In this document: positions 2,175 through 29,082 of the stretch, in pieces | Position numbering within the stretch: the stretch's first letter is position 1 | How the letters are laid out: each line of letters begins with the position of its first letter | Source of the DNA: Caulobacterales bacterium | GTDB lineage: Bacteria > Pseudomonadota > Alphaproteobacteria > Caulobacterales > Caulobacteraceae | Length of the DNA: 34,195 nt | Direction: 5' to 3' | Assembly: GCA_016234625.1 (NCBI GenBank) | Contig: JACRBD010000131.1 | Coordinates: forward strand, 1 to 34,195 | Notes under the pieces: generated by a model | Told to the model about the DNA's origin: nothing | Database searches by the model: none | The model's input: the letters and a program-made list of their open reading frames with translations, nothing else | Made by a program: the position numbers and the translations under genes

Positions 2175-3019
2175 CAGCAGGCCTCCGAGAAAAGGTCGGC
2201 CTGGTCGATCACGGCTGTGGCGTCCTCGACGGCAGCGGCCTTGGCTTTCGCCTTCTCGGTGCGGCTCGACCGCAGGATGCCGACGGCGCCGGTCTGCGCG
2301 GCGATCGACTTCTTCAGCGCGTCGATGCCGCTGAACCCGCCATCCTCAAGGATGCGCGCGAAGGCATCGACCACGGGGATGCCTTCGGGCGTCACCATGG
2401 TCAGGATGCCCGGCACGTTCTCCATGATCATCGTCTTGGGGTTCAGCTCGATGATCAGCCGGGCGTAGTCGAAGACCAAGCTGTTGCGCGGGTCCATGAC
2501 GTCGCGCTTGCCCGAGTTCGAGAAGCCCTGGCACGGCGGCCCGCCGGCGACGCAATCGAGTTCGCCGCGCTTCATCCCGATCGCGTCGAGGATTCTCTGG
2601 CCCGTCAGCTTCCGGACGTCGCCGATGAACAGGTGCTGGGTGCCGGTGATCTCGGGCTGGTTCTTGATCCAGCCGGTGCCTGCGGTCGGGAAGACCTTCT
2701 CGCCGCCGCTCTTGAACGACTTCCAGAGCGTCTTCTCCATCCGCTCCCGGTCGGCGTCCTCGACGAAGTGCATCGTCAGGTCGCCGTAGCGACAGAGGTT
2801 CATGGCGTAGGTAATCGCCGCCGTGCAGTCGTACTCGCAGGCCGCGACGACATGCCAACCGGCCTGCTTGAACCCGCAGGACATACCCCCGGCGCCGGCG
2901 AAGAATTCGACGGCCTTCGGCTTCTTGGGGACGTAGCGCCGCTCGGCCACGGCCTCCGGCAGCAGCAGGCCCGTGGGTGAGCGAACGAACTCGCGGGAGG
3001 AGGCACCGAGGTCGAGCAT
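2174..3019 (-). CDS. DNA cytosine methyltransferase-like protein lacking target-recognition half
   Basis: The catalytic half of a C5-methyltransferase is clear: AVEFFAGAGGMSCGF (motif I, ~36-50), GGPPCQGFSNSGKR with catalytic Cys163, and MIMENVPGIL (motif VI, ~198-206). After residue ~230 the expected motif VIII (QxRxR), target-recognition domain and motifs IX-X are absent. They are replaced by about 50 residues rich in Lys/Ala that end in QADLFSEAC. The 281 residues therefore lack the part that normally reads DNA sequence. The start at 3019 shares a base with the DUF5131 stop; a longer frame extending to 3394 would lie inside that gene. It may work with another subunit or be an inactive decoy. 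Confidence 0.8.
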   Translation of the reverse strand: MLDLGASSREFVRSPTGLLLPEAVAERRYVPKKPKAVEFFAGAGGMSCGFKQAGWHVVAACEYDCTAAITYAMNLCRYGDLTMHFVEDADRERMEKTLWKSFKSGGEKVFPTAGTGWIKNQPEITGTQHLFIGDVRKLTGQRILDAIGMKRGELDCVAGGPPCQGFSNSGKRDVMDPRNSLVFDYARLIIELNPKTMIMENVPGILTMVTPEGIPVVDAFARILEDGGFSGIDALKKSIAAQTGAVGILRSSRTEKAKAKAAAVEDATAVIDQADLFSEAC

Positions 3020-4095
3020 CAGGCACGGACCTCCGGCCTGGCGTCGTGGGTCACACCGTCGAGTTCGCGGCCGGCAAGGCCGACGCCGACACGCCGCTGG
3101 AGCGAGCCAAACCCGCCGTGCTGGGTATGCGTACCGCCGCCGACCCAGCCATCCGGCCAGACCATGATGTCGTCGCCGCGCGTCAAGCCATCTGGGTCGA
3201 CGACCGCAACTTGGGCGAACTCGCCGTTCTGCTTGTGGTGGTAGGCCACGCCAGCGGCGGCGCACTGGTCGCGGAGGCTGCGAAACCAGGCCGGGTGCGA
3301 CGGCCGCGGCTGGTGTTCGCCCTGGGCTGTCTCGCCGCCGGAAATCACCCAGTCGAGGCCACCGAAGCGCCGACCGCCGCCATCTAGCTCCCAATCACCT
3401 ATACCGAGCCGGATGATCGGCGCGAGCCGGCCTTCAAGGGCGTCCATCGCCCAAGCGTCGTCCTCGCCGCCCTTCGGCGCCTTCACCTCCAGCTTGCGCA
3501 GGTTCACGGCGCCGAGCAGCGGTTCCATGCTGACGAAGGCGAATGCCGGGTCGACGGCCGCCTTGGCGGCTAGCAGCACGGGGACGTCACGATCGGCTTC
3601 TGCCTGCAGAACAACCGTGCAGCCGATGGCGGCGTTGCGAGGCCAAGCCATTCGCACGAAGGCGGCGTCGACCGGACTCGGCCCGGGGCAGGACATCGCG
3701 TCGTAGGCCAGCTTCACGATGTTCTGCGGCCGTTTGGTCAGCAGCAGCCACGTCAGGTTCGGCGTGGCCCGGATCAGGTCGAACAGGTCGCGCCGCCATT
3801 CGACGGACACTTGGTTGTCGAACACGTCCGCCACGCTGGCGCAGAAGACGAAGCGCCGGACACCGTCGCGGACGGCCATCCGATTCCAGCGACGCGGCTC
3901 AGCCCAGGTCGAGGCCGCCGTGCGGCTGTGGGTCGCGCGATGGCCTGGGCGGCCCCAGATGACGCGCGGGAAGCGGCCAGTGTCGCCGAACAGCGCCTCG
4001 GCGTAGCAGCCGTCGCAGGCCGGGCCGACCTTGGTGCAGCCAATCCATGGATTGAAAGTCATGTCGCACCAGGAAATCGAGGTAAGCTCACCCAT
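3019..4095 (-). CDS. DUF5131 (phage Gp37/Gp68) family protein
   Basis: A 358-residue protein opening with TSISWCDMTFNPWIGCTKVG and then ACDGCYAEAL, the hallmark of the phage Gp37/Gp68 family. Cys20, Cys27 and Cys30 form a CX6CX2C cluster reminiscent of radical-SAM iron-sulfur sites. Further family-like segments are LTWLLLTKRPQNI, AFVSMEPLLG and DWVISGGETAQG. The function is not established; an iron-sulfur TIM-barrel enzyme is plausible. The chosen ATG at 4095 has AAGGGGAC about nine bases upstream, inside the antisense HNH gene. Starts further upstream would read antisense to that gene. A second, orphan copy of its first 16 codons lies at 4713-4760. Confidence 0.9.
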   Translation of the reverse strand: MGELTSISWCDMTFNPWIGCTKVGPACDGCYAEALFGDTGRFPRVIWGRPGHRATHSRTAASTWAEPRRWNRMAVRDGVRRFVFCASVADVFDNQVSVEWRRDLFDLIRATPNLTWLLLTKRPQNIVKLAYDAMSCPGPSPVDAAFVRMAWPRNAAIGCTVVLQAEADRDVPVLLAAKAAVDPAFAFVSMEPLLGAVNLRKLEVKAPKGGEDDAWAMDALEGRLAPIIRLGIGDWELDGGGRRFGGLDWVISGGETAQGEHQPRPSHPAWFRSLRDQCAAAGVAYHHKQNGEFAQVAVVDPDGLTRGDDIMVWPDGWVGGGTHTQHGGFGSLQRRVGVGLAGRELDGVTHDARPEVRA

Positions 4096-4702
4096 GGTCG
4101 ACGTCCCCTTGAGCCGCAGCGAGATCGTGAAGAAGGCCTGGCTGAAACGCCGGGCCACGTTCGTGCCGCCCATGAAGGGCAAGCGGATGAGTGACGAGGC
4201 CCGCGCAAAGATGAGCGCAGCGGCCAAGGCGCGGCCGAGCAACCGGCTGGGCAAGCGCCACACACCGGAAGTGCGGGCGAAGATCAGCGCCGTTACCCGA
4301 GAGCGAACGCCGCGCGGCGAGGCGGCGCCCGGCTTCATCGACGGCAAGGGTGCCGAGCGGCGAGGCCAGCGCCTGACGCCGGAACTGAAGCGATGGCGCT
4401 ACGACGTGTTCGCCCGCGACCAGTTCACCTGTCAGGACTGCGGCGATGACCGGGGCGGCAACCTGCACGCCCACCACATCAAGCCGTTCGCTAACTTCCC
4501 GGCGCTGCGTTTCGATCTCGCGAACGGCGTGACCCTCTGCGAGGACTGTCACCGCGCGCGGCACGCCTGCGGCAAACTCTAGGTCGCCGTAGAGGTCGTC
4601 GTCCTCGTCGTCGCTCCAGCACGCCTCACATGGACAATGGTCGCAGCCGCATCCGGAGAACCCGTCGTAGGCGCAACAGAGGAACCGGCATGCGTTACAC
4701 AT
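4088..4702 (-). CDS. Cys-rich small protein whose frame runs on antisense through the HNH gene
   Basis: The first ~42 codons look real: a strong GGAGG six bases before ATG 4702, and a product starting MCNACRFLCCAYDGFSGCGC followed by CPCEACWSDDEDDD. It has ten Cys and then an acidic stretch, a pattern seen in very small phage proteins. After about DLYGDLE the frame enters the antisense of the HNH gene (stop 4580-4582) and stays open to 4088, giving a 204-residue conceptual product. That tail has no protein-like pattern I recognise. The natural stop was probably lost at the junction with the HNH gene. The functional part, if any, is likely 4574-4702. Confidence 0.35.
   Translation of the reverse strand: MCNACRFLCCAYDGFSGCGCDHCPCEACWSDDEDDDLYGDLEFAAGVPRAVTVLAEGHAVREIETQRREVSERLDVVGVQVAAPVIAAVLTGELVAGEHVVAPSLQFRRQALASPLGTLAVDEAGRRLAARRSLSGNGADLRPHFRCVALAQPVARPRLGRCAHLCAGLVTHPLALHGRHERGPAFQPGLLHDLAAAQGDVDHG
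4094..4582 (+). CDS. HNH homing-type endonuclease (opposite strand insertion)
   Basis: It is the only plus-strand gene inside the leftward operon. The 162-residue product has an N-terminal LSRSEIVKKAWLKRR segment and two NUMOD3-like DNA-binding repeats (MSDEARAKMSAAAKA, HTPEVRAKISAVTRE). Its C-terminal HNH domain has CQDCGDD, NLHAHHIKPF and CEDCHRARH, which supply zinc-binding Cys pairs and catalytic His. This is the build of free-standing phage homing endonucleases. ATG 4094-4096 overlaps the divergent ATG of the DUF5131 gene (shared CATG), and GAGGT lies ~10 bases upstream. A longer start at 4031 would run deep inside that gene and is less likely. Confidence 0.85.
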   Translation: MVDVPLSRSEIVKKAWLKRRATFVPPMKGKRMSDEARAKMSAAAKARPSNRLGKRHTPEVRAKISAVTRERTPRGEAAPGFIDGKGAERRGQRLTPELKRWRYDVFARDQFTCQDCGDDRGGNLHAHHIKPFANFPALRFDLANGVTLCEDCHRARHACGKL

Positions 4703-5492: not shown

Positions 5493-5689
5493 CAGACCAG
5501 CTTCCTTTCGATCGCCAGCCACTCGGGCAGCGTGACCTCGATCAGGTCGCCACCCTTCTCCACGAACTCGACCTGGGACTTCGGGAGCCAGACCGCGTTG
5601 TCGGGATCGTCGCTGTCGTTGACGAGGATGCCGCGCTCGGTCTGCTGGATCAGGCGCACGGTGATTTCGGTGAGGGCTGCGTTGCCCAT
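5492..5689 (-). CDS. Hypothetical phage protein (65 aa)
   Basis: A 65-residue acidic, beta-rich protein (EITVRLIQQTERGILVNDSD, AVWLPKSQVEFVEKGGDLIE). The AVWLPKSQVEF block is characteristic of short conserved phage proteins of unknown role in which a small beta-barrel is likely. One-base overlaps link it to both neighbours in the left operon. Confidence 0.65.
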   Translation of the reverse strand: MGNAALTEITVRLIQQTERGILVNDSDDPDNAVWLPKSQVEFVEKGGDLIEVTLPEWLAIERKLV

Positions 5690-6207
5690 CAGGCGTTCTC
5701 CGCTTGTCGGTTGAGGGTTTCGAGCTCGACGCCGATCAGCTCGGAGAGGATGGCGAGCACGGCCGTCTTGCTGGCCTGGAAGGTCTCGCGGTCCATCGAC
5801 CGGCCCTTCTGGCTGCGGGCGGTGTAGATCGTGATCACCGCGCCCTGGACGAGGACGACGGCGTAGTCGTCCATCGGCTTGACGAAGCTCTGGAGCCGAA
5901 GGGCCTCGGCCTTGGAGGCGCAGACGTGGGTCCGCTCCTGCCGGTAGCCGACCTTGATCAGCGCCCACTTCCGGAGGTGCTCCGGGGTCGGGTAGCGCTG
6001 CATCGCGTCCTCGGGGAGGTTCTTCCACGCCTCGTTGATCAGCGCGTGGTAGTGGCGGCGGCTCGCGCTCGACGCCTCCTCGCGGACGACCATCGGGTAG
6101 ACCTCGCCGATGACAAACACCTGGTCGGCCGCCTTCGCGAAGCTGCGGAGGGGAACCAGATGCTCGCCGTCCCAGCGGCAGGGCAGAGGGCGGTCAGCCT
6201 CGCTCAC
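5689..6207 (-). CDS. Conserved alphaproteobacterial phage protein (172 aa, GTG start)
   Basis: A 172-residue protein: RWDGEHLVPLRSFAKAADQV, then VGEVYPMVVREEASSASRRH, LRKWALIKVGYRQER and VYTARSQKGRSMDRETF. I know this pattern from conserved hypotheticals next to SSB and recombination genes in alphaproteobacterial prophages; a role in recombination is inferred from position only. GTG at 6207 begins inside the end of the HNH gene (14-base overlap). The in-frame ATG far upstream would run antiparallel to protein-like sequence in the HNH frame, so it is rejected. No catalytic motif is evident. Confidence 0.75.
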   Translation of the reverse strand: MSEADRPLPCRWDGEHLVPLRSFAKAADQVFVIGEVYPMVVREEASSASRRHYHALINEAWKNLPEDAMQRYPTPEHLRKWALIKVGYRQERTHVCASKAEALRLQSFVKPMDDYAVVLVQGAVITIYTARSQKGRSMDRETFQASKTAVLAILSELIGVELETLNRQAENA

Positions 6208-16965: not shown

Positions 16966-17270
16966 CCGACTTCCCGCTGATCGCCACCTCCGATCCGGGG
17001 ACGGTCATCGTTCCCATCCCCGAGAAGCCGCAGCCGCGCCTCCCGACCTTCGCCGAGTGGACGGTGCCGGTCGAGCTTGTGCTCCGCTGCCCGTGCAGCT
17101 CCGTCTTCCGGGACACCATCCGTCAGCGGATCGGCCGGGGCGACCAGCCCCTGCCTGATGCGAAGGTCTACCTCCGGCATGGCCGGTACTTCTGCGAGGT
17201 CTACGTCCCCGGCGCGAACAGGCCCGGCGTCTTCATGGCGCTCGACCTCTGGGCGGGGGCACACCTGTGA
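16962..17270 (+). CDS. Hypothetical phage protein (102 aa)
   Basis: A beta-rich 102-residue protein: PGTVIVPIPEKPQPRLPTFA, WTVPVELVLRCPCSSVFRDT, AKVYLRHGRYFCEVYVPGAN. The Cys-Pro-Cys and Cys in YFCEV are notable. No family is recognised. It overlaps the preceding gene by four bases and the next GTG start by four bases. Confidence 0.65.
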   Translation: MTDFPLIATSDPGTVIVPIPEKPQPRLPTFAEWTVPVELVLRCPCSSVFRDTIRQRIGRGDQPLPDAKVYLRHGRYFCEVYVPGANRPGVFMALDLWAGAHL

Positions 17271-18001
17271 ACCAGCCCGCTCTCCCCGGCCTCGGCTTCC
17301 GTGGCCACGGCCTCCGCGCGCAGACCGACGAGTGGCTGACCCCGCCGTCGATTATCGATGCGCTCGGGCCGTTCGATCTCGACCCTGCGGCGCCTGCCGT
17401 GCGGCCCTGGCCGACGGCGTACGAGCACTACACCGAGGCCGACAACGGCCTGCTGCTGCCCTGGTTCGGCCGCGTCTGGCTGAACCCGCCCTACTCGAAC
17501 CCGCTGATCGGCCGCTTCATGGGCCGAATGACCGAGCATGGCTGCGGCACGGCCCTGATCTTCGCCAGGACCGAGACCGAGACCTTCTTCCGCCACGTCT
17601 GGCAGGGCGCGACCGCCCTCCGGTTCCTGGCCGGCCGGCTCCACTTCCACAAGGTCGACGGTTCACGGGCGCCGGGGAATGCCGGGGCCCCGAGCGTGCT
17701 CTGCGCCTACGGGGATGCCGACGCCGAGGTGCTGGCCGACTGCTCGATCGACGGCCAGTTCGTGCCCCTGCGCCTCCCGCGCGTCTTCGCCGTGCTCGCC
17801 CTGTCGACGACCTGGGGGCAGGCGGTCCGCGACTACATGCGCAGCCGGCCAGGCCCGGTCCCGCTGGCCGACATCTACCGCGACCTCGCTGGCCACCCGA
17901 AGGCCCGCCGCAACCGAAACGTCGAGGCCAAGATCAGGCAGGAGCTCCAGCGAGGCGCCGGGCGGCGTGTCGATCGCGGGCTCTGGGAGGCGGCGGCATG
18001 A
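17267..18001 (+). CDS. Phage DNA N6-adenine methyltransferase (Dam-type)
   Basis: A 244-residue enzyme of the phage Dam family: TDEWLTPPSIIDALGPFDLD followed by PAA, then RVWLNPPYSNPLIGRFMGRM with the NPPY catalytic motif, and GTALIFARTETETFFRHVW. It methylates adenine N6 in DNA using SAM; the target sequence cannot be read from the protein. Phage enzymes of this group commonly protect against host restriction. The C-terminal ~60 residues are basic (YRDLAGHPKARRNRNVEAKI). GTG 17267 overlaps the upstream stop. It is the first of three consecutive adenine-type methyltransferases. Confidence 0.9.
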   Translation: MNQPALPGLGFRGHGLRAQTDEWLTPPSIIDALGPFDLDPAAPAVRPWPTAYEHYTEADNGLLLPWFGRVWLNPPYSNPLIGRFMGRMTEHGCGTALIFARTETETFFRHVWQGATALRFLAGRLHFHKVDGSRAPGNAGAPSVLCAYGDADAEVLADCSIDGQFVPLRLPRVFAVLALSTTWGQAVRDYMRSRPGPVPLADIYRDLAGHPKARRNRNVEAKIRQELQRGAGRRVDRGLWEAAA

Positions 18002-19461
18002 CGGGCCTTCCGCTCTACTCTGGCCGCGAGGCCACCATCGACACTATCCACCAGGCGACGGCGATCTACACCGTGCCTGAGGAGATCAGCGCGCTGCTCG
18101 ACCGCCTCGACTGGCCGGCCGTCGGCGGGCGCCTGCTCGACCCGGGCGCTGGGAACGGCGGCGTCCTGATTGCTGCGCTCGACCGGTTGCGGCTGGCTCA
18201 CGACGACGTGGCGACGGCAGTCTTCTCGGTGAAGGGCTACGAGTTCCACGCTGGGGCCGTCGCGGCTGCTCGGCGCCGCGTCGCGGACCATCTGCTTGGT
18301 CGCTGCTGGTCCGGCATCGCAGCCGGCGCAGCAGCGTCGCAGATCGTTGAAGAGCGCGACTTCCTCCTGTCACCGGTTCCCGTGGCCACCTTCTCGGTCA
18401 TCGCCGCGAACCCGCCCTACTGGCGCGCCCTAAACCTGCCTGCAGAATACCGCGCCGACTACGAGGCGATGGTAGCCCCGCACGCCCAAGCCGACCTGCT
18501 CTACGCCTACCTGCAGCGAGCCGCCGACATCGTCGCGCCGAATGGTTCGATCGGCCTCGTGACGAGCGATCGCTGGCTCCTGAACGCCTCGTCGGCCGAG
18601 TTGCGCCGGCGTCTCGGCAAACGCTTCTCCGTGCGCGACCTTCGCAGGCTGGACAGCGCGTCGGCCTTCTACCGACCCAAGACCCGCACCCGAGGAACGC
18701 CGGCTCGCGTCCACCCGGTCAGTCTGGTGCTCGATCCGGCCGGCGTCGGCGCTGCGCTCACCGCAGCACCGTTCCCGCTGGACGGTTTGCCGGAAGCCGA
18801 GGGCGTCCTGCTGGGTGATCTTGCTGAGATCAGGCTCGCGCCCTGGCTGGGACCCGAGGGCATCTTCGTGGTTCGCGACCCGGCTGCTCTTCCCGGCGCC
18901 GTGCTCGTGCCCGTGGTCGAGCCTGACGACATAGACCCTCGCGGCGACTGCCTGACCGGTTCGAGCCGCTGGGCCATAGTGACCCGCGCGGACGTCGAGC
19001 CGGGCCCCTCGGTTCTCGCTCATCTCGACGGCCAGCTGCACCGGATGCCGCCGCGCGGCCGCAGGGCGACCCGCTGGGTTCCGCCTGAGACCTTCATCGG
19101 TCGCCTGCCGCTGGACGTGGACGCCGTCATGGTTCCGAGGATCGCCAAGCGGCTGCGGGCGATTCCGCTGCCTGCCGGCACAATGCCGATCAACCACAAC
19201 CTCGTCGTGGTCTCCGGGCATCCGGTGGCGGCGATGGTGGCTTGGCTGAACCACCCGGCTGTTCAGGCCCAGGCCGACGCCCTCTCGCTTCGGCTGGAGA
19301 ACGGCTACGCGAGCTTCACCGCGACCCTGCTGCGGCAGCTGCGCATCCCGGCCGAGCTCATCGCCTGTGAGGCCTATGGCCAAGCGGCTGGAGACCCCGG
19401 AATTGAGAAGACCGCGCGGCGCCGCGGTCCTGCTGGCTTCGCGAAAGGAGCAGCAGAATGA
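17998..19461 (+). CDS. Class I N6-adenine DNA methyltransferase (TaqI/Eco57I-like)
   Basis: A 487-residue protein with motif I RLLDPGAGNGGVLIAALDRL (~46-65), motif IV FSVIAANPPYWRAL (NPPY 138-141), and VAPNGSIGLVTSDRWLLN. A C-terminal half resembles target-recognition parts of TaqI/Eco57I-type enzymes (NHNLVVVSGHPVAAMVAWLN, ASFTATLLRQLRIP). It probably methylates adenine N6 in a defined sequence. Its ATG overlaps the previous TGA. The frame is open far upstream, but that part is antiparallel or shifted relative to the Dam-type gene and is not coding. Confidence 0.88.
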   Translation: MTGLPLYSGREATIDTIHQATAIYTVPEEISALLDRLDWPAVGGRLLDPGAGNGGVLIAALDRLRLAHDDVATAVFSVKGYEFHAGAVAAARRRVADHLLGRCWSGIAAGAAASQIVEERDFLLSPVPVATFSVIAANPPYWRALNLPAEYRADYEAMVAPHAQADLLYAYLQRAADIVAPNGSIGLVTSDRWLLNASSAELRRRLGKRFSVRDLRRLDSASAFYRPKTRTRGTPARVHPVSLVLDPAGVGAALTAAPFPLDGLPEAEGVLLGDLAEIRLAPWLGPEGIFVVRDPAALPGAVLVPVVEPDDIDPRGDCLTGSSRWAIVTRADVEPGPSVLAHLDGQLHRMPPRGRRATRWVPPETFIGRLPLDVDAVMVPRIAKRLRAIPLPAGTMPINHNLVVVSGHPVAAMVAWLNHPAVQAQADALSLRLENGYASFTATLLRQLRIPAELIACEAYGQAAGDPGIEKTARRRGPAGFAKGAAE

Positions 19462-20237
19462 GCAAACTCTCCAAGGCGCAGTATCGAACCCATCAGCAGG
19501 CCTGCGATCTGCTGACGAAGGATCGCCTGACCGAAGACGACCGCTGGTTCGTGCTGGAGAACTGGCAGGAATCGGCTCGCCATGTGAACAGCCAGGCTGG
19601 GGCGTTCTTCACGCCGCCCATGCTGGCCCGAGACTTCGCGATCGAGACCTGCGGGCCTCGAATCATCGACCTCTGCGCCGGCATCGGGATGCTGGCCTTC
19701 ATGGCCTGGAACAAGTCCGACTGGGGCCGCCAGCCGATCGAGCTCGTGTGTGTCGAGCAGAACCCCGACTACGTCGAGGTCGGGCGGAAGGTTCTGCCCG
19801 AGGCCACGTGGATCGTCGGCGATATCTTCGCCCTTCCGAACCTCGGGCACTTCGATTGCGCCATCGGAAACCCGCCTTTCGGGGCTACCCCTCGGGCCGG
19901 AACCGGGCCGCGCTATCGGGGCCGGGCGTTCGAGTATCACGTCATTGACGTGGCCAGTGACATCGCCGACTGGGGGACCTTCATCATCCCGCAGACCTCG
20001 GCGCCTTTCCGCTACAGCGGCCAGCCCCACTACGAGTGGCGGCCGGGCGAGACCTATGAGGCCTTCCGAAAGCAGACGGGCATCGAACTCGGCGCGAACT
20101 GCGGCATCGACTGCGATTTCCACAAGGACGGCTGGAGAGGCGTCGCGCCGACGGTCGAGATCGTGACGGCGGATTTTCAGTTGGCCCGCGAGGCCCGGCG
20201 GCCGGCTCAAGTCGACCTGTTCGAGGCAGTTGCATGA
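19458..20237 (+). CDS. DNA adenine-type methyltransferase (259 aa)
   Basis: It has QAGAFFTPPMLARDFAIETC, a start typical of N6-adenine methyltransferases, motif I IIDLCAGIGMLAFMAW (71-77 core) and motif IV FDCAIGNPPFGATP (NPPF 138-141). The TFIIPQTSAPFRYSG segment corresponds to a later motif. There is no separate recognition domain, so specificity may be broad or supplied in the middle loop. The acidic end (RRPAQVDLFEAVA) resembles a DnaN-clamp binding peptide (QVDLF), which would recruit it to the replication fork; this is inferred from the short motif. It overlaps both neighbours by four bases. Confidence 0.85.
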   Translation: MSKLSKAQYRTHQQACDLLTKDRLTEDDRWFVLENWQESARHVNSQAGAFFTPPMLARDFAIETCGPRIIDLCAGIGMLAFMAWNKSDWGRQPIELVCVEQNPDYVEVGRKVLPEATWIVGDIFALPNLGHFDCAIGNPPFGATPRAGTGPRYRGRAFEYHVIDVASDIADWGTFIIPQTSAPFRYSGQPHYEWRPGETYEAFRKQTGIELGANCGIDCDFHKDGWRGVAPTVEIVTADFQLAREARRPAQVDLFEAVA

Positions 20238-26025: not shown

Positions 26026-26604
26026 ATGCGCAAAAGCGAGTCCGCGCCCCCGGCGCGGCAACCCCTTGTCGTGGCCTATCGACGGCCCGACGAGCTCAAG
26101 GCCTATGGGCGTAACGCCCGCCGGCACTCGGCCGAACAGGTCGAGCAGATCGCGGCCTCGATGCAGGAGTTCGGGTTCACCAACCCGGTCCTGGTCAAGG
26201 ACGACGGCGAGACCATCGGCGCCGGTCACGGCCGCCAGGCCGCCGCTCTGCTGATCCTCTCGCGGGGTGAGCGCCTTCCGACACCGGACGGTGAGACCAT
26301 CCCGACGATCACCCTCACCGGGCTGAGCGAGGATCAGTGGCGCGCCTATGTCCTGGCCGACAACAAGCTGGCCCTGAACGCGACGTGGGACGCCGACATT
26401 CTCGCCGCTGAGCTGCGGGCGCTGGAGGGCGGCACGGCCGACCTCTCGCTGACCGGCTTCAGCGAGGCCGAGCTCGACGAGCTCCTGCGCGAGACCGTCG
26501 ACGCGGCCCAGGCGCCGGAAGCCTTCCCCGAGTACGGGGAGGACATCGAGACCGAGCACAAGTGCCCCAAGTGCGGGTACGCCTGGTCGGGCGAGGCGGC
26601 GTGA
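26026..26604 (+). CDS. ParB/Srx-domain protein with C-terminal zinc ribbon
   Basis: A 192-residue protein with a ParB-like N-terminal domain: LVVAYRRPDELKAYGRNARR, HSAEQVEQIAASMQEFGFTN, then ETIGAGHGRQAAALLILSRG (the GHGR nucleotide-binding box). The middle has AYVLADNKLALNATWDADIL. It ends with HKCPKCGYAWSG, a single Cys pair, probably half of a zinc site. In phages this protein stands beside or is fused to DNA methyltransferases; a CTP- or ATP-dependent DNA clamp or nuclease role is possible. It lies four bases upstream of the C5-methyltransferase start. Confidence 0.88.
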   Translation: MRKSESAPPARQPLVVAYRRPDELKAYGRNARRHSAEQVEQIAASMQEFGFTNPVLVKDDGETIGAGHGRQAAALLILSRGERLPTPDGETIPTITLTGLSEDQWRAYVLADNKLALNATWDADILAAELRALEGGTADLSLTGFSEAELDELLRETVDAAQAPEAFPEYGEDIETEHKCPKCGYAWSGEAA

Positions 26605-26607
26605 CCC

Positions 26608-27939
26608 GTGCCGCTCATCCTCAGGCACCGCAGCCGGATCAATCCCCGGCAGAACGGGCTCAACCTCGACGAGGAGCCCTGTCCGACCGTCACCGCCGGC
26701 GGGCTCTCGGCGTTCGGCCACTACTGGCTGGAGGCGGTCATGCCTGACCGCTACACGCCCGACCCCAACAAGCCGCCCTTCGCCGTGCCGAGCATGGCCG
26801 AGATCGCCGCCCTGCCGTGGAACGGCTTCACGGTGGCCTCGACCTTCGCCGGCTGCGGTGGATCCTCGACCGGCTACCGGATGGCCGGCTTCCGCGTGGC
26901 CTGGGCCTCGGAGTTCATCCCGGCCGCGGTTGAGACCTACCGGGCCAACTGCTCGCCCCGGACCCAGCTGGACACGCGAGACATCCGCCTCGTCCAGCCG
27001 CAGGACATCCTCGACGCGACCGGCCTGGCCGTCGGCGAGCTCGACGTGCTCGACGGCTCGCCGCCCTGCGCGAGCTTCTCGACGGCCGGCAAGCGCGAGG
27101 CCGCATGGGGCCAGGTAAAGAACTACAGCGACACGAAGCAGCGGGTCGATGACCTGTTCTTCGAGTACGCGCGCCTCATCGACGGGCTCCGGCCCAAGGT
27201 CTTCGTGGCCGAGAACGTCTCGGGCCTGATCAAGGGGAAGGCCAAAGGCTACTTCCTGGAAATCCTCGCCGCGCTGAAGGCGCCGGGCTATCGGGTCTCG
27301 GCCCGCCTGCTCGACGCCCAGTGGCTCGGCGTTCCACAGGCCAGGCAGCGCCTGATCTTCGTCGGTGTGCGCGACGACCTCGAGCTCGATCCCGTCCACC
27401 CGACGCCGCTCGGCTACCGCTACTCGATCCGGGATGCGCTGCCCTGGGTCATGTCGGCCACGCACGGCCCGGCCTCGACCAGCTTCGACAAGAGGGGCGA
27501 GCGCCTCTCGATCGACCGGGCGGCGCCGACCATCGTCGCGGGGGCGCAGGGCTCAGGCCCCCATCAAATCCACGTCGAGACCGAGAGCGACATCAGTCGC
27601 TTCGCGATCGGCGAGGAATGGGACAAGCTCCTGCCGGGCGGACAATCCGAGCGGTTCTTCCAGCTCGTCAGGCCCGACGCCGACGCGCCCTCACCTACGA
27701 TCACCGCAGCGGGGGGCGCGCCCTCGACCGCCGGCGTCACCCACCCGACGGAGAAGCGCAAGTTCGCGATCGCCGAGCTCCGGCGCATCTGCGGCTTCCC
27801 CGACGACTTCATCCTGACGGGCAACTACTCCCAGCAGTGGGAGCGCATGGGCCGCTCGGTCCCGCCCGTGATGATGAGCCACATCGCCGCTGCCGTGCGC
27901 GATCGCATCCTCATCCCGGCTCGCGAGGCCGGCCGATGA
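26608..27939 (+). CDS. DNA cytosine-C5 methyltransferase with Arg in motif X
   Basis: A complete 443-residue C5-methyltransferase. Motif I is STFAGCGGSSTGYRMAGF (~78-95), motif IV LDGSPPCASFSTAGKR with catalytic Cys154, motif VI VAENVSGLI (Glu202), and motif VIII GVPQARQRLIFVG. A ~100-residue recognition region with two PTI(V/T)A boxes follows, then SQQWERMGRSVPPVMMSHIA as motif X. There the near-universal Gly-Asn is Gly415-Arg416. GTG 26608 keeps an N-terminal segment (INPRQNGLNLDEEPCPTVTA) resembling the C-terminal PT(V/I)TA part, so the longer start is preferred. The next gene is a CmoA-like SAM enzyme overlapping it by four bases. Confidence 0.92.
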   Translation: MPLILRHRSRINPRQNGLNLDEEPCPTVTAGGLSAFGHYWLEAVMPDRYTPDPNKPPFAVPSMAEIAALPWNGFTVASTFAGCGGSSTGYRMAGFRVAWASEFIPAAVETYRANCSPRTQLDTRDIRLVQPQDILDATGLAVGELDVLDGSPPCASFSTAGKREAAWGQVKNYSDTKQRVDDLFFEYARLIDGLRPKVFVAENVSGLIKGKAKGYFLEILAALKAPGYRVSARLLDAQWLGVPQARQRLIFVGVRDDLELDPVHPTPLGYRYSIRDALPWVMSATHGPASTSFDKRGERLSIDRAAPTIVAGAQGSGPHQIHVETESDISRFAIGEEWDKLLPGGQSERFFQLVRPDADAPSPTITAAGGAPSTAGVTHPTEKRKFAIAELRRICGFPDDFILTGNYSQQWERMGRSVPPVMMSHIAAAVRDRILIPAREAGR

Positions 27940-28628
27940 AGGTCCCCGGCGCCGGAGGCTGGACCTTCGAAGACAAGGGCATCGCGGCCGCGTTCGATCA
28001 GCACGTCCGCGAGCAGCTGCCCTGGTATGACCTCGCCACAGGCGCGGTCGCCCACATCGCCCGGCACTACATCCCGGCCGGCGGCCTCGTCTATGACGTG
28101 GGCTGCGCGACCGGGAACGTCGGCCGGGCCCTCGCCGAAACTCTGCAGGCGCGCGACGCCACCCTCATCGGGATCGAATCCAGCGCCGAGATGGCCGAGC
28201 GCTATGTCGGGCCGGGCCAGATCATGGTCGCCAATGCGGCCAGCGTCGACTTCGCGCCCTGCGATCTCATCGTGTGCTTCCTGACCCTGATGTTCATCCC
28301 GCGCCCCGAGCGCGTGGCCATGATCAGGAGGATGCGCGCTTCCCTCCGCCCCGGCGGCGCCCTCGTGGTCTTCGAGAAGATCGAGGCCGGCTCGGGCTAT
28401 CCCGCGACCGTTCTCTGGCGTCTCGCCCTCGCGGGCAAGGTCGCCGCGGGCGTTGACGCGGGGGAGATCGTCGCCAAGGAGCTCTCGCTCAGTGGGGTCC
28501 AGCGCCCGCTCGCCGCCTCCGAACTCGGTCAGGGCGCGATCGAGTGGTTCCGCTTCGGGGACTTCGGGGGCTGGCTCATCGAGCACCAGGCAGAGGCACA
28601 GGGCGCGCGCCGAACCAAAGGAGCCTGA
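27936..28628 (+). CDS. CmoA-like SAM-binding enzyme (putative carboxy-SAM synthase)
   Basis: A 230-residue class I SAM protein: WTFEDKGIAAAFDQHVREQL, PWYDLATGAVAHIARHYIPA, motif I LVYDVGCATGNVGRAL (52-63 core), FLTLMFIPRPERVAMIRRMR, LRPGGALVVFEKIEAGSGY, then EIVAKELSLSGVQRPLAASE and WFRFGDFGGWLIEHQ. The order and several segments match E. coli CmoA, which turns SAM and prephenate into carboxy-SAM: its opening, FTLQFLEPSER, NPGGALVLSEK and the terminal FNFG. The helix carrying the CmoA carboxylate-binding Arg is not obvious. A plain methyltransferase is the alternative. Confidence 0.75.
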   Translation: MKVPGAGGWTFEDKGIAAAFDQHVREQLPWYDLATGAVAHIARHYIPAGGLVYDVGCATGNVGRALAETLQARDATLIGIESSAEMAERYVGPGQIMVANAASVDFAPCDLIVCFLTLMFIPRPERVAMIRRMRASLRPGGALVVFEKIEAGSGYPATVLWRLALAGKVAAGVDAGEIVAKELSLSGVQRPLAASELGQGAIEWFRFGDFGGWLIEHQAEAQGARRTKGA

Positions 28629-28632
28629 CCGC

Positions 28633-29082
28633 ATGCCAAAGCCCGAGGGAACGGGACAGAGGCGCCCGACCGAGGAGGACATGCCCCGGTTCATGGAGCT
28701 CGTCTCCGAGGGCAAGTCGCTCAGAGAGGCGTGCAGGAAGCTGGAGCTCCACGCTCCGTCGACGCACACGTTCATCGACTCGGACGACGGCCTTCGCGAA
28801 CAGTACGCGCGCGCGAAGGAGCAGCGCGCCGAGCACTATCAGGAGGACGTCCTGACCGTCACCAAGGCGGCGGCGCTCGGCCTGAAGGTGAACGGCCAGA
28901 AGGTCGATGCGGCCGGCGCGCGGGCCTACCTCGAGGCGACCAAGTGGGCGACCGCTCGCATGGCGCCGAAGACCGCGCCCGTTCAGCGTCTCGACCTGAC
29001 GAGCCGCACGCGGCAGATGACCGATGCGGAGATCGCCGAGGAGATCGCCGCCTTCGAGGCTGGCGCGCGCGGCGACGGCTGA
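28633..29082 (+). CDS. terS: Terminase small subunit
   Basis: A 149-residue protein: an N-terminal HTH (RFMELVSEGKSLREACRKLE, APSTHTFIDSDDGLREQYAR) recognises the packaging site. A helical centre (AKEQRAEHYQEDVLTVTKAA) precedes EATKWATARMAPKTA, typical of phage small terminases that continue with KWxxxKxxPK(K/R). It is placed directly before the large subunit. The frame is open upstream, but ATG 28633 lies just after the CmoA-like stop and fits the family length. Confidence 0.85.
   Translation: MPKPEGTGQRRPTEEDMPRFMELVSEGKSLREACRKLELHAPSTHTFIDSDDGLREQYARAKEQRAEHYQEDVLTVTKAAALGLKVNGQKVDAAGARAYLEATKWATARMAPKTAPVQRLDLTSRTRQMTDAEIAEEIAAFEAGARGDG

Follow-up and report, generated by a model that had tools for sequence, protein, structure and literature searches.

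The window analysed here, a stretch of 34,195 bases, is the entire contig C42 of a 3.77-Mb bin that comprises 365 contigs and is 91.75% complete. It is a piece of a phage or prophage. The contig carries recombination genes (YqaJ and an SSB-like gene), a GcrA homologue, DnaB- and DnaG-type replication genes, and packaging and head genes consisting of a terminase, a portal with DUF4055 (phrog_145), and a Mu F-like head gene. The GcrA homologue suggests that the host is an alphaproteobacterium. Phage contigs may be wrongly binned, and the true host may differ from the organism of the bin. The contig terminates within the head genes, and some of the phage is therefore missing. Between the replication and the packaging genes lie three plus-strand genes, which code for a ParB-like protein, a cytosine C5 enzyme, and a CmoA-like protein. 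The features of this cassette are as follows:

26026-26604, plus strand: ParB-N-like protein of 192 aa, the upstream member of the cassette (phrog_620, ParB-like partition protein, 1e-46)
26608-27939, plus strand: predicted CmoX-type DNA cytosine C5-carboxymethyltransferase of 443 aa (PF00145, 1.6e-53; 8yf3, 8.3e-67)
27067-27069, plus strand: codon of the catalytic Cys154 in SPPC (aligned to SpCmoX Cys98)
27841-27843, plus strand: codon of Glu412, four residues N-terminal of Arg416
27853-27855, plus strand: CGC codon of Arg416 in motif X, predicted contact of the carboxy-SAM carboxylate (aligned to SpCmoX Arg350)
27936-28628, plus strand: predicted CmoA-like carboxy-SAM synthase of 230 aa (TIGR00740, E 2.1e-18; 4gek, 1.7e-14)
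28633-29082, plus strand: small terminase, boundary of the cassette and start of the packaging module (PF20901 Sf6_terminase, 1.1e-12 on the longer ORF 28453-29082)

The C5 and CmoA-like genes share four bases (ATGA), the second starting at 27936. Other methyltransferase genes are found on the contig. A second C5 methyltransferase (2177-3394, minus strand) is reduced to its N-terminal half, without target domain or motif X, and overlaps a DUF5131 ORF (3022-4347, minus strand); compared with it, the enzyme of the cassette is full-length, which bears out its description as complete in the original prediction. A Dam-type PF05869 methyltransferase-like ORF is located at 17267-18001 (plus strand), the ORF 17077-19461 (plus strand) has an Eco57I/N6-type match in its more downstream part, and a small methyltransferase-like ORF under the Pfam cut-off occupies 19458-20237 (plus strand). 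With these three further ORFs (17077-20237), the phage is well supplied with genes for DNA modification.

The C5 enzyme and the published CmoX system

The reading frame of the C5 enzyme is open throughout 26608-27936 and yields 443 aa from a GTG at 26608, containing QQWERM followed by Gly415-Arg416-Ser-Val-Pro-Pro. Translation may in reality begin with the ATG at 26740; residues are numbered here from the GTG. The 44 codons ahead of that ATG (26608-26739, plus strand) encode a target-domain-like stretch, EEPCPTVTAGG, and similar stretches also precede the enzyme in loci L010 and L065. Motif X had been read as Gly-Arg-Ser-Val in place of the Gly-Asn-x-Val of ordinary 5-methylcytosine enzymes, and the CGC codon agrees with this reading. 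A sequencing slip is ruled out, as the arginine is common to homologues.

The protein is a full PF00145 member and scores above the cut-off of TIGR00675. Its closest solved structure is 8YF3, SpCmoX (228.9 bits), the second being M.HaeIII with 80.7 bits, and the enzyme is closer to SpCmoX than to the 5-methylcytosine enzymes of solved structure. Arg416 aligns with Arg350 of SpCmoX, the residues Phe25, Glu47, Phe48, and Asp69 of SpCmoX correspond to F80, E102, F103, and D125, and the SPPC motif (S151, P152, P153, and C154) corresponds to residues 95-98. In 60 host-related genomes, no close CmoX relatives were found (best match 88 bits), and motif X was GN in 10 of 10 readable cases among the 11 best C5 loci of host-related genomes. 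This, together with the association of the arginine with CmoA described below, indicates that arginine is not the usual state of motif X.

The original prediction took its lead from M.MpeI, in which Asn374, which we take to be the motif X asparagine, had been exchanged for lysine. The idea of natural carboxymethylation has been in print since December 2025, when CmoX, CmoA, and the ligase CmoY were described in Synechococcus phage S-B43 (Yang et al., Nat Commun; PMC12783734); the cassette of the window is a further member of this system, with no ligase in sight. The CmoX/CmoA pair of S-B43 makes 5-carboxymethylcytosine, and CmoY couples glycine to the carboxylate (PMC12783734). In 8YF3, Arg350 occupies the position of HhaI Asn304 and contacts the carboxymethyl group of carboxy-SAM (Cx-SAM); the wild-type enzyme takes Cx-SAM only and not SAM, whereas R350N takes neither (PMC12783734). 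The target of the enzyme is GC, protection against HhaI is obtained, and a conserved active-site glutamate and arginine contact N4 and O2 of the cytosine (PMC12783734). The engineered M.MpeI N374K shows likewise that a C5 enzyme with a basic residue can accept Cx-SAM and form 5-carboxymethylcytosine (PMC12783734), but it bears an introduced lysine and targets CG, whereas the window enzyme has a natural arginine. The same study listed 5,615 CmoX candidates, whose contigs held 4,257 CmoA, 2,251 ligase, and 1,660 ParBc sequences (PMC12783734).

The search used in that study combined SPPC with an arginine at the position of Arg350 (PMC12783734), and the window enzyme has both, as well as the adjacent CmoA gene expected of a CmoX. 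The window shares with SpCmoX/SpCmoA the C5 fold, SPPC, the motif X arginine, the residues of the Cx-SAM pocket, and a CmoA in the cluster. It differs in gene order (ParB-CmoX-CmoA against CmoA-CmoY-CmoX in S-B43), in having no CmoY ligase nearby, and in its CmoA, which belongs to another subfamily (KELSLxGxQRP). The proposal that the positive arginine accepts the carboxylate is supported by the alignment of Arg416 with a residue that contacts Cx-SAM in SpCmoX.

Association of the motif X arginine with CmoA

According to the original prediction, arginine in motif X should co-occur with the CmoA-like gene, and the idea would suffer if arginine homologues were equally common without it. The comparison covers 173 loci for which the C5 enzyme was the sole query, the wide fetches being the best 80 of at least 569 and the best 80 of 267. 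Motif X holds arginine in 122 of them, asparagine in 46, and leucine in one (L153), and is unreadable in four. Among the matches listed, CmoA is present in 115/122 arginine loci and 0/46 asparagine loci, is absent from the leucine locus, and is present in one of the four unreadable ones. The arginine thus tracks CmoA, and the feared equality is not found. After de-duplication at 90% and restriction to loci with at least 2.5 kb downstream and at least 1.5 kb upstream, the counts among the matches listed are 49/50 for arginine, 0/28 for asparagine, and 0/1 for unreadable loci. A larger set of 201 rows (ORFs above 150 bits; five unreadable because of a gap and one leucine) includes loci that were picked by CmoA, and the 173-locus count is preferred for this reason.

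Seven arginine loci lack CmoA. Two of them (L176 and L191) are cut less than 100 bases from the gene, three (L121, L113, and L119) come from records 9.8 to 16.7 kb long in which nothing matches SpCmoA, and the remaining two (L208 and L190) belong to genomes that have a CmoA relative on a different contig (identity to SpCmoA 55% and 31%, respectively).

A second residue goes with the arginine. Among the matches listed, in a set that includes CmoA-fetched loci, a glutamate four residues before the motif X residue occurs in 149/149 arginine types and in 11/46 asparagine types. The glutamate and arginine reported to contact the cytosine are presumably residues other than Glu412 and Arg416. Arg416 and Glu412 together provide a sequence signature for such enzymes, a pairing that is not described in the accessible portion of PMC12783734. 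In a tree of 118 enzymes, no two of which are more than 75% identical, the asparagine label requires four changes, at least three of them forced by supported branches, and the asparagine enzymes nested in the arginine clade lack CmoA. CmoA tracked the residue in 2.9 on average of three independent supported pairs; with only three to four pairs, the sign test falls short of significance (median p 0.25).

These observations bear on the simplest competing explanation, namely, that the protein is an ordinary 5-methylcytosine enzyme in which the arginine is neutral and the CmoA-like gene is an unrelated neighbouring methyltransferase. The fold and family are those of 5-methylcytosine enzymes, and the CmoA-like protein remains under its curated cut-off. 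Against this stand the distribution of CmoA, on which the rejection of a neutral arginine rests, the invariant glutamate of the arginine types, and the rejection of SAM by the homologous SpCmoX (PMC12783734). An ordinary methyltransferase is accordingly held to be very improbable.

The original prediction also suggested that the ParB-like protein could be part of the cassette. It is a usual member, with relatives in 130/142 loci that have both arginine and CmoA (among the matches listed, redundancy kept), and in this respect the suggestion holds. It is not specific to carboxymethylation, because ParB relatives also stand beside asparagine enzymes (39/46, among the matches listed), and a part reserved for carboxymethylation is thereby ruled out. 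The protein itself (26026-26604) matched no Pfam family at E values up to 0.1.

Probable carboxy-SAM supply and the proposed route

The overlapping neighbour had been said to resemble CmoA, and its two top curated families are indeed both CmoA models, with scores under their cut-offs (for TIGR00740, 66.9 bits against 193.3 bits). SpCmoA, an active synthase, likewise falls under the TIGR00740 cut-off, with 115.6 bits. Among solved structures, the sequence matches the CmoA of 4gek. In the AlphaFold model (pLDDT 84.5), the predicted fold is that of CmoA: the six best PDB matches are all CmoA or YecO, with TM values of 0.74-0.80 by query length, E. coli CmoA (TM 0.80) and H. influenzae YecO being the best. 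Compared with E. coli CmoA (4GEK, 4IWN), the window protein is 24% identical and keeps the positions of Tyr39, Asp62, Gly64, and Lys198, but Arg199 is replaced by Glu182.

This replacement concerns the carboxylate pocket. In E. coli CmoA, Arg199 forms a salt bridge with the carboxylate of Cx-SAM (PMC3663124). The absence of such a pocket had been named as an argument against the original prediction, and the argument is half sustained: Arg199 is lost in the window protein, but the Mcat8 CmoA and SpCmoA also have glutamate in this column, and SpCmoA is an active synthase with a kcat of 2.33 per s (PMC12783734). The absence of Arg199 alone is therefore no argument against activity. In 69 phage or viral-contig sequences (redundancy kept), the column holds Glu in 57, Ala in seven, Arg in two, and other residues in three, while Lys198 is lysine in 69/69. 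The branch of CmoA without Arg199 poses the question of how the phage enzymes hold the carboxylate; the equivalent of Lys198 and the arginine of GxQRP are candidates for the part played by Arg199.

No other CmoA was found in the host bin with the window CmoA as query and with TIGR00740, at the 91.75% completeness of the bin. The phage therefore probably carries its own Cx-SAM supply, and the local supply proposed originally is supported by this result and by the adjacent CmoA relative. Alternatively, the CmoA-like protein might serve the host tRNA (cmo5U) or deplete SAM as a counter-defence, the C5 enzyme merely borrowing its product. The bacterial role known for CmoA is cmo5U34, and SAM depletion has been raised in PMC12783734. 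However, Pfam or PHROGs scans of 35 distinct ORFs of the window returned no CmoB family, the gene overlaps that of CmoX, and CmoA tracks the arginine of CmoX. Such a role is considered extremely improbable.

The locus is very probably a CmoX/CmoA-type cassette for the hypermodification of phage DNA, which would place 5-carboxymethylcytosine in the phage DNA. This reading is supported by SpCmoX as the best solved match, the equivalence of Arg416 and Arg350, the coupling of arginine and CmoA, Glu412, the CmoA fold, and the adjacency of the two genes. The CmoA-like protein would convert SAM, together with prephenate, to Cx-SAM. Cys154 of the C5 enzyme would attack C6 of a flipped cytosine, and the carboxymethyl group would then be transferred to the base, its carboxylate being held by Arg416, perhaps oriented by Glu412. 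The resulting 5-carboxymethylcytosine would block host restriction, and, no ligase having been found, the acid itself may be the final base. Each step has a counterpart in a published experiment on a homologue or in a test reported here, and the overall interpretation is supported in this sense. Activity, target sequence, final product, and restriction evasion would follow for this phage by analogy with the S-B43 homologues, to which CmoX is identical at 143/343 aligned residues and CmoA at about 22%. The natural route to 5-carboxymethylcytosine would thereby be extended to a phage contig whose bin shows no other CmoA.

Final product and a second CmoA partner

Carboxymethylcytosine could also be only an intermediate, if an amine were coupled to it, in the way that CmoY adds glycine, by a ligase encoded in another part of the phage or by the host. 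The ligase counts rest on two models, namely, PF00733 and a profile derived from ten asparagine-synthetase-like proteins. By this count, an asparagine-synthetase-like ligase is present in 49/142 loci with arginine and CmoA (among the matches listed); moreover, part of the phage is missing beyond the contig end, and searches of this type would miss ligases of another fold. Conversely, the window has no match to the ligase profile or PF00733, which cover asparagine-synthetase-like ligases only. PF00733 was found in five of 13 whole records (TurkishDelight, S-B43, L104, L109, and L131), and the eight without it include the complete genome of Moraxella phage Mcat8 and the records of seven other relatives, which are possibly fragments.

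Two of these phages carry systems that are among the closest known to that of the window. Mcat8 (KR093632, where the genes are annotated as hypothetical) has the same ParB-CmoX-CmoA order in the same slot before the terminase, with 44% identity in CmoX and 49% in CmoA, and, like the window, is without Asn_synthase, but it belongs to another host group. Genes gp121-gp125 of Streptomyces phage TurkishDelight include a ParB-like protein, a CmoX that is 62.9% identical, and a CmoA that is 30.9% identical to those of the window; in contrast to the window, a glutaminase-type asparagine-synthetase-like ligase (gp124) stands between CmoX and CmoA.

By eye, the three PF00733 matches in the bin resemble a host asnB that a contig break has divided in two and an enzyme without relation to it, which we take to be MnmA; as far as these matches go, a ligase hidden in the bin is rejected. 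The split asnB adjoins a glycosyltransferase-like gene, again by eye. Another ligase query gave a weak match (E 3e-4) on contig C334 of the bin. On balance, a later coupling step is possible but somewhat doubtful. As no ligase was found, the modification may end with the free acid, and a ligase-free branch with 5-carboxymethylcytosine as its end product is plausible, because none appears in the window, in the Mcat8 genome, or among the PF00733 matches of the bin. In such a form, protection may come from the charged acid itself.

CmoA relatives also occur beside a second kind of protein, unrelated to CmoX. A C5-profile match is missing from 26 of the 169 loci that have a CmoA relative, and 24 of these 26 hold a fusion of about 510 aa that joins a ParB-N domain to a Methyltransf_23-like domain (phrog_5475), all among the matches listed; the remaining two have CmoA at the end of a contig. 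Among the matches listed, none of the 169 loci has both the fusion and a C5 match. When the fusion was used for the search (best 80 of 208 loci, redundancy kept), a CmoA relative was present in 79/80, a ligase-profile match in none, and a remote C5 match of 62 bits in two. Of eight whole records with fusion loci, one has a remote C5 match, and the other seven are without a match to CmoX. The window is without the fusion, which is found in related loci and in named phages, with a CmoA-family gene in each of the following:

L042, 3993-5525, plus strand: fusion of ParB-N and a class I methyltransferase (phrog_5475)
L322, 702-2237: fusion (phrog_5475)
L323, 4932-6488: fusion (phrog_5475)
L324, 1032-2624: fusion (phrog_5475)

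The named phages are Gordonia phage Evaa, Pseudomonas phage SM1, and Aeromonas phage HJ05, in which the CmoA-family gene lies downstream of the fusion and matches TIGR00740 with E values of 4e-30, 6e-26, and 7e-35, respectively, all under the cut-off. DPPY- and PPC-type motifs are the catalytic motifs of known DNA base methyltransferases, and by eye neither type was seen in the fusion. Its predicted structure (pLDDT 75.5) matched only ParB domains and general methyltransferases. Full-text searches found no other literature on the pair of ParB fusion and CmoA, and a preliminary search for N6 or N4 candidates had found none (PMC12783734).

The fusion is a candidate for a second Cx-SAM-dependent DNA alkyltransferase in phages. 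A broader proposal, offered tentatively and close to evenly balanced, is that carboxymethylation occupies a swappable slot that starts with ParB and often precedes the packaging genes. In it, CmoA would have as its partner either CmoX, as is the case in the window, where the form would be ligase-free and the product a free acid, or the fusion, which would modify a position other than cytosine C5. If confirmed, the fusion-CmoA pairs would represent a second kind of carboxymethylation, testable in cultured phages.

Some further genes accompany these pairs. In SM1 (L323, 7289-10059) and HJ05 (L324, 3389-6321), CmoA is followed by two uncharacterised genes, the first for a protein of 280 aa in SM1 and 325 aa in HJ05 and the second for one of 643 and 652 aa, respectively; they gave no match to NCBIfam, and in Pfam the 280-aa protein of SM1 alone weakly resembles a helix-turn-helix family, with a score below the cut-off. 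They are possible further tailoring genes. Between the fusion and CmoA of L042, a small protein (5525-5977) belongs to phrog_32036, has no Pfam match, and appears HAD-like by eye; in the corresponding stretch of Gordonia phage Evaa, a gene annotated as a phosphatase lies on the opposite strand.
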